Source: a virus. From it: a DNA stretch of 47,063 nt. The notes under the pieces were generated by a model. It searched no databases. It was not told the DNA's origin and saw nothing but the letters and a program-made list of their open reading frames with translations. Positions 1 to 47,063 of the stretch are shown piece by piece. Position 1 is the stretch's first letter, and each line of letters opens with the position of its first letter. Made by a program: the position numbers and the translations under genes. The stretch spans positions 1-47,063 of IMG/VR virus record IMGVR_UViG_3300045051_000918; one strand, written 5' to 3'.

Positions 1-127
1 TGTCGGCCAGTCTCCCAGTCTTTCCCGGTGTCCGCTCAACGGTACTTTTACATCGAACTTTCTTGAGCATTCCCGATGAATCAGCGCTGACTGCATCTCT
101 GCGATATCGCTTTGCCAAGGCTTCCTA
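1..127. repeat. Terminal direct repeat, left copy (circular contig overlap)
   Basis: These 127 bases are identical to 46937-47063. The match stops exactly at both contig ends. An overlap of this size equals a common maximum assembler k-mer, so it most likely marks a circular or circularly permuted genome of about 46,936 bp, not a biological terminal repeat. The junction falls inside the structured non-coding region. Confidence 0.95.
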
Positions 128-217
128 GCAGAGGTAGCTACTCCCCCGCATGCCCCTTGGTTCGGCTCAACCCTGTGGACCCATTACAGTCTATTCCCCA
201 GTGAGCTTCTGAGCGCC

Positions 218-255
218 GATCCCGAAATCCTCAGATAAAGGACTTTGGGATCAGA
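218..255 (-). repeat. 38-base hairpin repeat, copy 1
   Basis: The sequence is identical to 440-477. It folds into a stem with outer arms GATCCC/GGGATC and inner arms TCCT/AGGA around a short loop. The copies are 222 bases apart in direct orientation. Duplication of a long hairpin in non-coding DNA suggests a repeated RNA domain or a processing site. Confidence 0.85.
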
Positions 256-439
256 GCCGGTCGCGACCCGGCACCCATCGTATCCGCGTTACCAGCGCGG
301 CCCACTCCCCGTCTGGCGACAGGTCGGTAACTTCATGGTGGTTTGGCTCCCGATGGACTGGAAACCCTTCTCAGTGCGTCTCTCCAGGGAGTCGACTACT
401 GTGACCAGTCTCCTGCTCTCCCAGCTTCCCACGCCGTCT

Positions 440-477
440 GATCCCGAAATCCTCAGATAAAGGACTTTGGGATCAGA
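440..477 (-). repeat. 38-base hairpin repeat, copy 2
   Basis: This is the second identical copy of the 218-255 hairpin. It lies immediately downstream of tRNA-His in the minus-strand direction, where it could act as a processing or folding signal. Confidence 0.85.
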
Positions 478-480
478 TAT

Positions 481-553
481 GTGTCCGGTGGGATTTGAAC
501 CCACGATTTGCAGCTTCACAAGCTGCCGGCTTGGACCGCTCGCCTACGGACAC
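481..553 (-). tRNA. tRNA-His (anticodon GTG)
   Basis: On the minus strand this folds as a full 73-base cloverleaf. The acceptor is GTGTCCG/CGGACAC, the anticodon arm is GCAGC-TTGTGAA-GCTGC and the T arm is CGTGGG-type with a TTCAAAT loop. The loop gives anticodon GTG, reading CAC/CAU. The base before G1 is G, as expected for tRNA-His, but the discriminator (complement of 480) is A rather than the usual bacterial C73. A73 is known mainly from alphaproteobacterial tRNA-His. CCA is not encoded. Confidence 0.9.
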
Positions 554-570
554 CACTTGCTGGGTAATGG

Positions 571-643
571 ATGGGACGGCAGGCATCGAACCTGCAACCG
601 ACGGCATCAAAAACCGCTGCGCTACCAATTGCGCTACGTCCCA
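571..643 (-). tRNA. tRNA-Gln (anticodon TTG)
   Basis: This minus-strand cloverleaf has acceptor TGGGACG/CGTCCCA. The D arm is GCGC-AATTGGTA-GCGC, the anticodon stem GCGGT/GCCGT has wobble end pairs, and the T arm is GCAGG-TTCGATG-CCTGC. The loop TTTTGAT gives anticodon TTG for CAA. The U1-A72 pair is typical of bacterial tRNA-Gln and supports the identity. The discriminator would be U, which is unusual. It lies 17 bases upstream of tRNA-His, so the two are probably co-transcribed. Confidence 0.88.
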
Positions 644-1341
644 ATGAGTGATCCAGAGCCGGTCAGAACCTGGGAAGAGTGGACCATGACTGACTGCGAT
701 TATAGTTTAGCCCTTCCCAGGCTTGCCGACTCGAAGCCGAGATTAGCCCGCGGCAGAGGGATTGTCAGGCCGGGATCGTGTACTGATGGGTGCCTCGCCT
801 GGTTAAACTATCGTGCGCGCTTCCGGGTCGGGGTCGAACCGACATCTCTCAAGGTCCGGACCCTGAGTGTTTTGACTCCTTAAAAGGGAGCGGCGAGACT
901 ACTGAAGCTTAAGCAGATATGAGTGGAAGGAAAAGTCTGGATCGCATGCGGAAATTCGGGCAAATAGCTAGGCCAGGGCTTTTTAAGGGTCATATATCCC
1001 CTAAAACTCCCCTGCCTTTTCGCCGCTGGTACACCCGACATTGCTCCTGCGCAGGATTTATTCCGCTTGTATGACCCACCTGCTACGGAAGAAACATTCA
1101 AAGAAACCGTCGTCTTCTTCGGGTTATGACTCTCGTAACTGAACTGGAGCCCCTGGCATTCAGAATGTTTGCTCTCAGACAATCACGGGTTGCAGTTCTC
1201 CTCGGATACCCTGTGCAACATGGTCTCGAAAAGAAGCGGTTGAGATTATGGTGCCGACTCAGCGTTATAAAGGCACCCTCGATTTCTGGGGTTGAGGTTC
1301 GATGCCAAACTAATGGCCCTGCTCCCAGGAATTCCCGAATT
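644..1341 (-). ncRNA. Structured non-coding segment upstream of the tRNAs
   Basis: About 700 bases carry no credible gene but many local inverted repeats. Examples are CCTGGGAAG/CTTCCCAGG (669-677 with 713-721), GGTGCC/GGCACC near 1248-1278, GTTGCA/TGCAAC near 1190-1222 and a 12-base palindrome TCCTGCGCAGGA near 1050. A tRNA-like element sits at 819-908. Dense hairpins next to tRNAs in a phage fit a large ornate RNA such as GOLLD or ROOL. That assignment is inference from context, since no consensus was matched. Confidence 0.45.
819..908 (-). other. tRNA-like element with long extra arm, no D arm
   Basis: On the minus strand there is a perfect T arm (GTCGG-TTCGACC-CCGAC, bases 827-843). A 7-base acceptor-like stem with one mismatch is formed by GCTTCAG and CGGAAGC. 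There is also a hairpin with loop CTTTTAA and a 10-bp extra arm (CTCAGGGTCC/GGACCTTGAG). Only about ten bases separate the acceptor strand from the anticodon-like arm, so there is no D arm. It is not a normal tRNA. It could be a tRNA mimic within a larger RNA or a decayed tRNA. Confidence 0.5.
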
Positions 1342-1575
1342 TTACCAGGGCACGTCTGGATCGGTCGAGTCCGCTGTTAAGGCAGGGTCAGGTGTCCAGT
1401 CCAATGCGTGCTCCTCACGTAAATATGGCCGGTGAGCAACTTGACGGTATTTCGCATCGATCTCCTTCGGAGTGTAGCCGCGAGCCTCGAAATGACGTAT
1501 CACCTGCCGAAGCGGATGAAACCGCAAAAGCTCGCGCATCGCAGGTACGGAAAGCTTGTTGTAATCGATGTTCAC
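1342..1575 (-). CDS. Hypothetical protein, 77 aa
   Basis: I do not recognise this family. The start is a GTG preceded by AAGGAG at a good distance. A longer frame begins upstream but lacks a ribosome site. The product is basic in its first half (including a helical stretch rich in Arg, His and Glu around residues 15-40) and acidic at the C-terminus. It lies just upstream of the tRNA/RNA region in the same direction, so it may share that transcript. A nucleic-acid-related role would fit the composition but is only a guess. Confidence 0.65.
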   Translation of the reverse strand: MNIDYNKLSVPAMRELLRFHPLRQVIRHFEARGYTPKEIDAKYRQVAHRPYLREEHALDWTPDPALTADSTDPDVPW

Positions 1576-44576: not shown

Positions 44577-45191
44577 CTAGTCAGCATCCGGCAAAGGATA
44601 CGGCCCCTCGCAAGCGTTCGTCGGACGCGGCACGTTCCGGGCAAAGTCTCCGAGGTAGTTCCCAGGGGGATTATACCGGCATACATGATAAATGCCCTGC
44701 GGACACTGCGCCGTCCCGCAGCCAATTTCCGAAGTCTTCGCCCACACCATTTGTGTAAAATGCATCATCTCATGGGGTGGAGTCGCGACTCCGTAGGGAT
44801 ACCCCTCCCCTTCCTCATACCAAAGCTCCATGGCCCTCTCTGGCGTTAAACCAGGCCCGATTGCGAGATTCTCCCCATGCCCGGTGTTCGACGCATGCTG
44901 AAATACGCAGCGATTCGCCCATGCCTGAGCTTCGTTTGCGAGGGCCTGTGACCAGCGCAATGGCTGGACACCATGGGGACAGCGATAATCATTGTGTATC
45001 GCCTCCCAGACCGTCGGCACCGGGATCGGCGCTGGTGGAGGCATCGGGTTCGGTCCGGGCGGCAGTGGCGTTGCTGTGACCGTTGGAATCGGCGTAGGAA
45101 CTGGATAGGGAACCGGGACCGGTACAGGTTCGGGTGGTGGCGGATTCGGAGAAGGACAGAGCAGAAAAGCGAAAAGCAAAAGCCGTTTCAT
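44577..45191 (-). CDS. Secreted CAP-domain protein, 204 aa
   Basis: A hydrophobic signal (residues 1-12) is followed by a Pro/Val/Thr linker (about 14-60) of PVP-type repeats. The CAP/SCP domain (61-195) has HGENL at 105-109, HFTQMVW at 144-150 and GCGTAQC at 157-163, with candidate cavity residues His99, Glu107 and His144. CAP proteins are secreted and bind lipids or cell-wall parts. It is rare in phages. AGGGGA precedes the ATG. It is monocistronic and opposite to its neighbours, which suggests acquisition (a moron). Confidence 0.9.
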   Translation of the reverse strand: MKRLLLFAFLLCPSPNPPPPEPVPVPVPYPVPTPIPTVTATPLPPGPNPMPPPAPIPVPTVWEAIHNDYRCPHGVQPLRWSQALANEAQAWANRCVFQHASNTGHGENLAIGPGLTPERAMELWYEEGEGYPYGVATPPHEMMHFTQMVWAKTSEIGCGTAQCPQGIYHVCRYNPPGNYLGDFARNVPRPTNACEGPYPLPDAD

Positions 45192-45268: not shown

Positions 45269-45297
45269 TTGACGGTAACCCGCGCCCGTCCTAGTGT
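45269..45297 (+). promoter_or_regulatory. Putative sigma70-type promoter for the CPBP gene
   Basis: TTGACG is followed after 17 bases by TAGTGT, and the gene starts 27 bases later with AAGGA in between. The -35 is good, the -10 weak. Confidence 0.45.
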
Positions 45298-45323
45298 GCA
45301 GGGGCTTCATACAAGGATCATTA

Positions 45324-46070
45324 ATGGATTTACGCAAAACCCACCTCTTCACTCTCGGCGTGTTCTCGGCGCATTTGAGCTATATTGCCCTGCTGCTGAA
45401 ATTCAGTCCGGGCATGCCTGCCACGACTTTTTATTTTGCCGACCTGGGTGTCACGTATATTGCTATTGCCGTCATTTTGAAGATCAAATGGGGGCAGAAC
45501 ATCAATCGCCCGACGATTTCCCCGCTCGCGTCGATCCTTTTCGTCCTCGGAGCGTTGTCTCTCGGTTTGATCCTCAAGGGCGCTTGGTATGAGCTTTTGC
45601 AATCCATGGCGAGCGAGCCTCAAAAGTATGTGGACCCGATGCTTTATAAAGAGGCGCCAGCACAAAAGTCCCTTTTTCAGAATATCTGGACCATGCTTCT
45701 GGCTCCCCTGAACGAGGAGATTCTCTATCGCTTCGGACTTTTATCGTCGCTCTCGTTTTTTGTGAAACGCCCGCTGGCACTAGTCTTGTCAGCTGCTGTA
45801 TTCGCGACTGCTCACTTTTGGGTTTACCCGGCGAGCATGATGATTCCGCTCTTTGTCACCGGCCTTATCCTCGGAGTTGTCTACCTCACCCTCGGACTCC
45901 GCTGGTCGATGCTGCTTCATATCATCTTCAACTCGAAGCCTCTGATTGACTCCACGCTGCTATCAAACGAGACAACTTTCACAGTCTTTTTCGCGTTGGC
46001 TTTTGTTGGAATTTGGGTGTTCATCTCGAAATCTTTCAAAGTCCGGCGTGCTGTCTTCGACCTTCAGTAA
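45324..46070 (+). CDS. CPBP-family (CAAX-type) intramembrane metalloprotease, 248 aa
   Basis: The hallmark motifs are present: Glu131-Glu132 and Arg136 in NEEILYRFG, FATAH ending in His164, and His199 with Asn203 in HIIFN. Six or more hydrophobic segments make it an integral membrane protein. CPBP (Abi/Rce1-like) proteases cut prenyl-type or other membrane substrates; some protect against bacteriocins or take part in immunity. Start 45324 has AAGGA seven bases upstream. It is followed 14 bases later by a secreted-protein gene. Confidence 0.9.
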   Translation: MDLRKTHLFTLGVFSAHLSYIALLLKFSPGMPATTFYFADLGVTYIAIAVILKIKWGQNINRPTISPLASILFVLGALSLGLILKGAWYELLQSMASEPQKYVDPMLYKEAPAQKSLFQNIWTMLLAPLNEEILYRFGLLSSLSFFVKRPLALVLSAAVFATAHFWVYPASMMIPLFVTGLILGVVYLTLGLRWSMLLHIIFNSKPLIDSTLLSNETTFTVFFALAFVGIWVFISKSFKVRRAVFDLQ

Positions 46071-46084
46071 CAGGAGTACCGACT

Positions 46085-46762
46085 ATGCGCAAAATTTTTC
46101 TGGCTCTATTTATCGCTTCGGCATCGACTCTCGCACTTGCAGATGACCCAGGTAGTGAAAAGGTCAAGGTCACAGGGCCGCGAGTATTTCCATCGTTTGG
46201 ACCTATCGGTATGTCTGGGCCGATCGGCGGAAATGGCCCCAAATGCGCGGAACCCACCTGCGGCGGACGGATTATCGAAACGGACGGCGGTGAGAGCGGA
46301 GTCACAACGAGCGCGGAAAAAGCAAAAGAAAACAAGAATTCAATCGATCAAGCAAAGAAAGCTCTCGTTATATTCAAGGACGCGATCAAATCCTCAATCG
46401 ATCTCATAAACGCAATGAAAAAATGGATGCGTGGTGACGTGAACATCCATGAAGACAATGTGACAATTGAAATCCGGCCCGATGGAACAAAGATAATCTC
46501 GGGATCCTGCAAGGACGTTATCATCGATCTCGGACCAGAAAGCGGACAAAAACCCACATGCGCGGTTATCAAAGGCGGATCACAGCTTATCCAGCGATCA
46601 AATGGCGAATATGAAAACCAGCTCCGTCTTCAATATAGCGTCTACAAAGGCTGCTACTACACAAAGCAGTGTGGCGTTCAAACCGTCGTTTTCCTCGCCG
46701 GGAGCGAAGAGGAATTGAATTACATTCTGAATAAGGTGCTGGGTGAAGAATACTTCCAGTGA
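46085..46762 (+). CDS. Secreted protein of unknown function, 225 aa
   Basis: The ATG at 46085 has CAGGAG nine bases before. A signal peptide (KIFLALFIASASTLALA) ends near residue 19, so the protein is exported. The mature part has a Gly/Pro-rich start, a helical middle (residues 75-120) and a beta-rich C-terminal domain with four or more Cys (GCYYTKQCG). No family is recognised. It is co-oriented with the CPBP gene and may be its substrate or partner; this is inference. Confidence 0.75.
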   Translation: MRKIFLALFIASASTLALADDPGSEKVKVTGPRVFPSFGPIGMSGPIGGNGPKCAEPTCGGRIIETDGGESGVTTSAEKAKENKNSIDQAKKALVIFKDAIKSSIDLINAMKKWMRGDVNIHEDNVTIEIRPDGTKIISGSCKDVIIDLGPESGQKPTCAVIKGGSQLIQRSNGEYENQLRLQYSVYKGCYYTKQCGVQTVVFLAGSEEELNYILNKVLGEEYFQ

Positions 46763-46936
46763 GGATTGGGGAAGGCCCGGAGTCGAACCGGGCGACCTAC
46801 GCTCCGCAAAAAGATAGGCCCTTCCACAAGCGATCCCACATTAGAGACCAACCAACACTTCACGGAGTTCAGGTGTTTGCCCCAGGCTGCAAGTGGGGCT
46901 TGGCGACCCAGGGATTGGACACCTTCGTCCGCTCGC
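46763..46936 (-). ncRNA. Structured end of the putative large RNA
   Basis: This is gene-free. On the minus strand AGGTGT/ACACCT encloses GCCCCA/TGGGGC between about 46870 and 46925, and the tRNA-like element at 46769-46825 follows. Through the contig junction it is continuous with 1-1341. It could be the 3' domain of one large RNA. Confidence 0.45.
46769..46825 (-). other. tRNA-like element lacking a D arm
   Basis: On the minus strand a perfect T arm (CCCGG-TTCGACT-CCGGG) is followed by CCTTCCC, whose CCTTCC pairs with GGAAGG at the 5' side. A CCTA/TAGG arm lies between. At 57 bases it is far too short for a tRNA and has no D arm. It is a tRNA mimic, a decayed tRNA, or the 3' half of a split tRNA. 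Confidence 0.5.
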
Positions 46937-47063
46937 TGTCGGCCAGTCTCCCAGTCTTTCCCGGTGTCCGCTCAACGGTACTTTTACATCGAACTTTCTT
47001 GAGCATTCCCGATGAATCAGCGCTGACTGCATCTCTGCGATATCGCTTTGCCAAGGCTTCCTA
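46937..47063. repeat. Terminal direct repeat, right copy
   Basis: This is the exact second copy of bases 1-127. Joining the copies makes the non-coding tRNA/RNA region continuous from about 46763 through the contig end to 1341. Confidence 0.95.

Follow-up and report, generated by a model that had tools for sequence, protein, structure and literature searches.

A folded RNA module of ~65 nt, made of a pseudoknot and of a short hairpin with the loop GGAAAGAC directly 3' of it, is conserved and covaries across unrelated tailed phages, where it sits ahead of or between untranslated RNAs (tRNA, tmRNA and tRNA-like RNAs) or in leaders. We are confident that the pseudoknot and hairpin are a real conserved phage RNA element. 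Because no catalogued RNA family matches it, the module looks like an undescribed phage RNA, and we found no description of it in Rfam or in the open-access literature, to which the literature search was confined. The question whether it represents a new autonomous class of RNA device seems to us evenly balanced; such a device, common to tailed phages of many hosts and placed ahead of tRNA, tmRNA and tRNA-like RNAs, would be either a family of protein-independent antiterminators reaching far beyond put or a small self-cleaving ribozyme of a new kind. Long untranslated tRNA arrays are common in phages, though their transcription and processing are poorly understood. The module gives a concrete sequence handle on them, which can be searched for, deleted, and assayed for readthrough or cleavage, including in the Escherichia coli phage mEp390.

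The window, by which we mean the whole stretch of DNA that was analysed, consists of one virus record, 47,063 bases long. Its positions 1-127 are identical to 46937-47063 (a terminal repeat of 127 bp), and the genome is therefore circular, with 46,936 bp, as a preliminary description of this DNA had assumed in reading through the junction; the length of the repeat suggests a residue of assembly at k=127. Its genes include those for a helicase, an internal virion protein, tail proteins and a distant terminase. The closest terminase relatives in IMG/VR share only ~35-42% identity with that of the window, and their contigs hold neither tRNAs nor sequence similar to the RNA region; they were dropped as a route to homologues of this region, as was the neighbouring protein at 46085-46762, for which no relative was found. 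A plasmid collection searched with the region gave a single match, to a tRNA only. Between a plus-strand gene that ends at 46762 and a minus-strand frame that ends at 1342 lies a gap of ~1.5 kb. Codon signal is present in the flanking genes and absent in every frame from 46763 through the junction to 1341, so that the minus strand is indeed almost free of genes here. The frame next to the region has no PHROG match and is possibly co-transcribed with it. Beyond this frame, a second gene-poor stretch of ~1.4 kb (1576-2998), a possible origin or promoter region, separates divergent gene sets and holds a G/T-rich run (~1690-1790) as well as, on the plus strand, a hairpin that resembles a terminator (1849-1867). 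Elsewhere, a CAP-family secreted protein (44577-45191, minus strand) adjoins an Rce1-like CAAX protease (45294-46070, plus strand), which is unusual phage cargo. Read 5' to 3' on the minus strand, the region and its neighbouring frame contain the following features.

1342-1575, minus strand: frame of 77 aa with a GTG start, which stops where the RNA region starts
818-910, minus strand: weak candidate for a second tRNA-like element, with a T-arm (GTCGG-TTCGACC-CCGAC), a T-loop motif and a long palindromic arm
568-643, minus strand: tRNA-Gln (TTG), called by ARAGORN; Rfam 62.9 bits
480-553, minus strand: tRNA-His (GTG), called by ARAGORN; Rfam 68.5 bits
440-477, minus strand: hairpin copy 1 of an exact 38-nt repeat, 2 nt past the 3' end of tRNA-His
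218-255, minus strand: hairpin copy 2, with the same sequence as copy 1
34-78, minus strand: H-type pseudoknot, with a second copy at 46970-47014 in the terminal repeat
15-32, minus strand: GACA and hairpin, with a second copy at 46951-46968 in the terminal repeat
46844-46950, minus strand: rod of 107 nt closed by a 14-bp helix, which begins directly past the hairpin via the circular junction
46769-46826, minus strand: tRNA-like structure without D-arm, with acceptor GGAAGG/CCTTCC, one arm, and T-arm CCCGG-TTCGACT-CCGGG

The two tRNAs and the duplicated hairpin were already part of the preliminary description; an exact scan of IMG/VR with the 38-nt hairpin found no relative. Two tRNA-like elements had also been proposed, and only one of them proved well supported. 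It runs from 46826 to 46769 on the minus strand, combines a 6-bp acceptor with a T-arm (shuffled genome strands average 0.05 such matches each), lacks the D-arm and is closed on itself within ~58 nt; neither ARAGORN nor Rfam calls it. The other, at ~910 to 818, looks decayed: its fold has no excess stability (z 0.13), its acceptor has one mismatch by eye, and the acceptor-plus-T-arm scan missed it. A reading of the 3' end as a permuted tmRNA was dropped because the tRNA-like element holds both acceptor strands. The dense inverted repeats once attributed to the whole region are only partly borne out by folding energies. Among the 150-nt minus-strand windows, only 389-538 (z -4.15) and 614-763 (z -3.3) stand out, and most of the others have z ~0; the 3'-terminal 188 nt (46763-46950) also fold strongly (z -2.97). 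This 3' end is a folded stretch of ~250 nt in which pseudoknot, GACA-GGAAAGAC hairpin, rod and tRNA-like RNA follow each other in this order. The closing helix of the rod has a score of 30, and positions 46937-46950 of it are the same as 1-14; covariation is lacking for the rod because it has no homologue. The whole may quite possibly be a polycistronic non-coding RNA locus of the minus strand, composed of tRNA-Gln, tRNA-His, the repeated hairpin and the 3' folded stretch.

The key element, at 78 to 15 on the minus strand, falls outside the segment 128-1341 to which the preliminary description was assigned and inside the stretch that its text covered, where it had been overlooked. In the pseudoknot, helix P1 pairs 78-74 with 55-51 (CATCG/CGATG) and helix P2 pairs 68-63 with 39-34 (GCTCAA/TTGAGC), and the fixed letters are GGAAT (73-69), GAAAGTT (62-56) and TACCG (44-40). 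The stretch from 78 to 34 thus has the family architecture P1-GGAAT-P2-GAAAGTT-P1'-linker-TACCG-P2', fully paired. A permissive blastn search of phage genomes gave the first relative, which lies in a gap without annotation in Vibrio phage vB_VpaP-MS02 (58 nt, 78%, E 0.3-0.5), and the differences between the two sequences sit exactly at the helix positions of the pseudoknot: in MS02, P1 is AGTGG/CCACT and P2 is ATCCAA/TTGGAT. Pattern scans added the Vibrio phage pVco-5, the near-identical prophage-like L161 and L162, and the metagenomic phage L186. When the loose pattern GGAAT-N6-GAAAG-N13-TACCG was scanned, the true members had 11/11 Watson-Crick pairs, and all other matches had at most 6. The alignment of the five distinct phage sequences has all of its cells paired (55/55), with double compensatory changes in 10 of the 11 pairs; such pairing was reached in 0/500 shuffles, and it falls to 27-40% when the partner is slid by 1-3 columns. 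The conservation of the fixed letters is partly by construction, because exact-pattern scans select those letters; the pairing evidence is independent of this selection. The earlier proposal of a structured non-coding RNA beside the phage tRNAs is supported by these data, including by covariation, the test that it had itself put forward. In L186 (4503-4585), the pseudoknot occurs past a gene end without the GGAAAGAC hairpin and with an intrinsic terminator immediately 3', so it may have an independent existence. Upstream of a TerD gene, the module of MS02 (L028) is replaced by other sequence in the Vibrio phages PhiImVa-1 (L031) and BUCT194 (L033); the flanks are 90-98% identical across the three, which makes this a cassette swap.

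The hairpin is the more widespread half of the module. In the window, 32 to 15 on the minus strand comprises GACA (32-29), the complementary stem CCG/TGG (28-26/17-15) and the loop GGAAAGAC (25-18). Its short-stem form, GACACYGGGAAAGACTRG, is mostly viral: it occurs in 105 stretches in IMG/VR (2.9 million virus contigs) and in only 22 in prokaryote genomes (257 Gb), many of them within long open frames. Three sets of observations concern the hairpin and its stem. First, at the Y/R pair the short form has T-A in 78 virus loci, C-G in 31, T-G in 4 and C-A in 0, in a scan that imposed the choice of Y and of R but not their combination. Second, other copies have unrelated complementary stems (CCCC/GGGG, GCCG/CGGC, CTTT/AAAG, CTCA/TGGG, TGCG/TGCA), and beyond the short-stem pattern 23/30 independent occurrences are fully paired, in a set partly retrieved by stem sequence; four permuted loops used as control gave 1 match, unpaired. 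Third, when ten hairpins with arbitrary, invented stems were searched in phage genomes together with ten loop-reversed controls, 89 records matched, and among the 60 listed all had the true loop and none was a loop-reversed control. Among the hosts of these phages are Vibrio, Xanthomonas, Stenotrophomonas, Pseudomonas, Acinetobacter, Klebsiella, Cronobacter, E. coli and Bacteroides. A region may hold more than one copy, as in Stenotrophomonas phage BUCT709 with three and in MW202675 with two.

The genomic contexts associate the module with untranslated RNAs. In 12/46 independent clusters of the short-stem set, a tRNA or tRNA-like RNA follows on the same strand at a distance of up to 260 nt, compared with 0/46 antisense and 0/242 distant windows. 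The hairpin ends 2-9 nt 5' of a tRNA or tRNA-like RNA in about ten independent loci (L039, L052, L056, L061, L077, L090, L097, L125, L215 and L225), and one hairpin precedes the 5' end of a phage tmRNA (L133, 3554-3978) by 6 nt, with another copy within the tmRNA itself. Other copies are found in leaders directly ahead of protein genes and, as in pVco-5, in short gaps between genes. Two copies lie at the head of a gene run, downstream of the repressor in mEp390 and of a Cro/CI-HTH pair in BUCT709; the heads of gene runs near repressor or Cro are the sites of nut/put-type signals. By eye, a long paired arm follows 3' of the hairpin in mEp390 (ACACAAC...GTTGTGT, L220 1502-1790) and in Klebsiella phage P7641 (AAGCACTG...CAGTGCTT, L223 1202-1330), and the downstream partner therefore need not be a tRNA. 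In other contigs the hairpin alternates with tRNA-like structures that lack the D-arm (L110 900-1250, L058 9500-9830, L107, L068 and L097), several of which are followed by TTGG; these are probably undescribed RNAs or unusual tRNAs that ARAGORN does not call. A permuted tmRNA stands beside tRNAs and the hairpin in the phage contig L077 (3075-3335).

What might such a module do? We infer an action in cis, on the transcript that carries the module, and our preferred reading, a tentative one, is that the module modifies transcription elongation over untranslated phage RNA, in the manner of put but as an unrelated family. The folded module would bind the elongating host RNA polymerase, which would then resist pausing and Rho-dependent or intrinsic termination, and long, untranslated, strongly folded phage RNAs could thereby be transcribed to their end. 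The working mode would be that of HK022 put or lambda nut, achieved by an unrelated RNA; put antiterminates by way of the beta' zinc-binding domain of RNA polymerase. The put RNA has ~70 nt and two stem-loops, and it is cis-acting, with no phage protein needed (PMC9378689). The module resembles it in the proposed mode, that of a folded phage RNA working in cis close to the heads of operons, but it has a pseudoknot, adjoins tRNAs and may occur in several copies per region. We favour an elongation role because a single mechanism would then account for tRNA arrays, tmRNA, leaders and the heads of operons. Furthermore, a host range from Vibrio to Bacteroides suggests either that the RNA has an activity of its own or that its target is conserved among hosts, and RNA polymerase as the target would explain this breadth. 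A number of observations count against antitermination: the intrinsic terminator that follows the pseudoknot in L186, the seven T that trail the hairpin itself at L084, and the fact that no promoter-like site was found ahead of the mEp390 copy. The hairpin is also missing from HK022 between 25 and 34 kb, a stretch scanned whole, with the put sites unmapped within it; identity of the module with HK022 put by sequence was rejected on this ground. Antitermination alone also leaves the spacing of 2-9 nt between hairpin and tRNA unexplained.

This spacing is better accommodated if the module is a processing element, either a self-cleaving ribozyme or a landing site for a nuclease, that cuts polycistronic phage RNA near tRNA, tmRNA or tRNA-like domains. 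Processing or self-cleavage fits the tight spacing better than an elongation role does, and fits the leader contexts worse. Helices next to the hairpin point in the same direction: one begins 0-9 nt past it more often than in controls (0.32 vs 0.08 at score>=20), and one tends to end 0-2 nt ahead of it (0.31 vs 0.11 at offset 1), a tendency that we do not claim to be universal because the overall excess is modest. A small fixed core with variable stems also recalls the cores of ribozymes, and theta ribozymes offer a precedent beside phage tRNAs, with a cleavage site at most 5 nt from the tRNA 3' end (PMC10879173). These HDV-like RNAs, whose fold has a catalytic C in J4/2, share with the module a small structured form that adjoins phage tRNAs, but the hairpin is found 2-9 nt upstream of the tRNA 5' end and theta ribozymes at the 3' end, and the module was rejected as one of them; the HDV models of Rfam matched neither the RNA region nor the module-bearing loci scanned. 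Many copies, moreover, are away from tRNAs (the Vibrio, Barba and marine leader families, and mEp390), tRNA 5' ends are already generated by RNase P, no cleavage site is evident, and one copy is within a tmRNA. We therefore regard processing as rather unlikely, though a serious competitor of the elongation reading.

Less probable again, and in our view unlikely, is a purely structural role, in which the module would be a linker or a protein-binding joint of large phage non-coding RNAs with no direct part in transcription or cleavage. Its location between folded domains, the multiple copies per region in BUCT709 and MW202675, and the copy inside the tmRNA are consistent with such a role. Copies in leaders directly ahead of protein genes and in short gaps, as in pVco-5, speak against it.

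The preliminary description had likened the region to GOLLD and ROOL, large non-coding phage RNAs found near tRNA islands (PMC12286853), and had proposed a comparison with the Rfam models of GOLLD, ROOL, OLE and tmRNA. None of the four, nor any other Rfam 15 family, gave a credible covariance-model match besides the tRNAs at E<=5 in cmscan searches of 1-2200 and 45900-47063, on both sides of the junction or across it, and all were rejected. That the region is a divergent RNA of the GOLLD/ROOL type, a single large molecule, in GOLLD one that exceeds 800 nt, forming an oligomer or cage, is very improbable. It has ~1.5 kb of non-coding sequence beside phage tRNAs, as those RNAs do (PMC12286853), and the linker of GOLLD can contain tRNAs, but most of it has ordinary folding energy and the 1.5 kb as a whole gave no homologue; the part conserved in other phages is modular and has ~65 nt. 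The suggestion of a new class holds for this module; that the 1.5 kb form one large ornate RNA is conjectural. As for phage tmRNA (RF00023), one tmRNA contig carries the hairpin and the tRNA-like element of the window also lacks a D-stem; however, ARAGORN found no tmRNA with tag peptide in the window, no Rfam tmRNA model matches it, and its tRNA-like RNA is self-contained, with ~58 nt. RNA C and RNA D of T4 (species 1 and 2) are likewise small stable RNAs within a phage tRNA cluster, and close to the 3' end of RNA C there is a sequence resembling a T-arm, but the GACA/GGAAAGAC hairpin is absent from the T4 tRNA region. The idea that we are looking at a tRNA cluster that has decayed in a gene-poor gap, with a coincidental likeness of motifs, has next to no probability: the MS02 match was not significant by itself and the second tRNA-like element looks decayed, but covariation in pseudoknot and hairpin and the invented-stem searches refute chance for the module, leaving it possible for parts of 644-1341.

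The neighbourhoods of the hairpin also bear on the annotation of known phages. In Xanthomonas phage FoX2, gp30 and gp31 (L214 1472-1655) are tiny annotated ORFs, probably spurious, that overlap or trail the hairpin. In the deposited record of Vibrio phage 1.033.O, the tRNA-Gly (L228 1688-1762) has been assigned to the wrong strand; according to both ARAGORN and Rfam it is on that of the hairpin. Bacteroides phage BS-TP2 (L225 1226-1333) has an unannotated tRNA of ~108 nt (Rfam 40 bits) that starts 4 nt past the hairpin and probably contains an intron or a large variable arm. Finally, an abiF RNA (RF03085) lies in the phage contig L038 (1421-1457), ~160 nt ahead of a copy of the hairpin.
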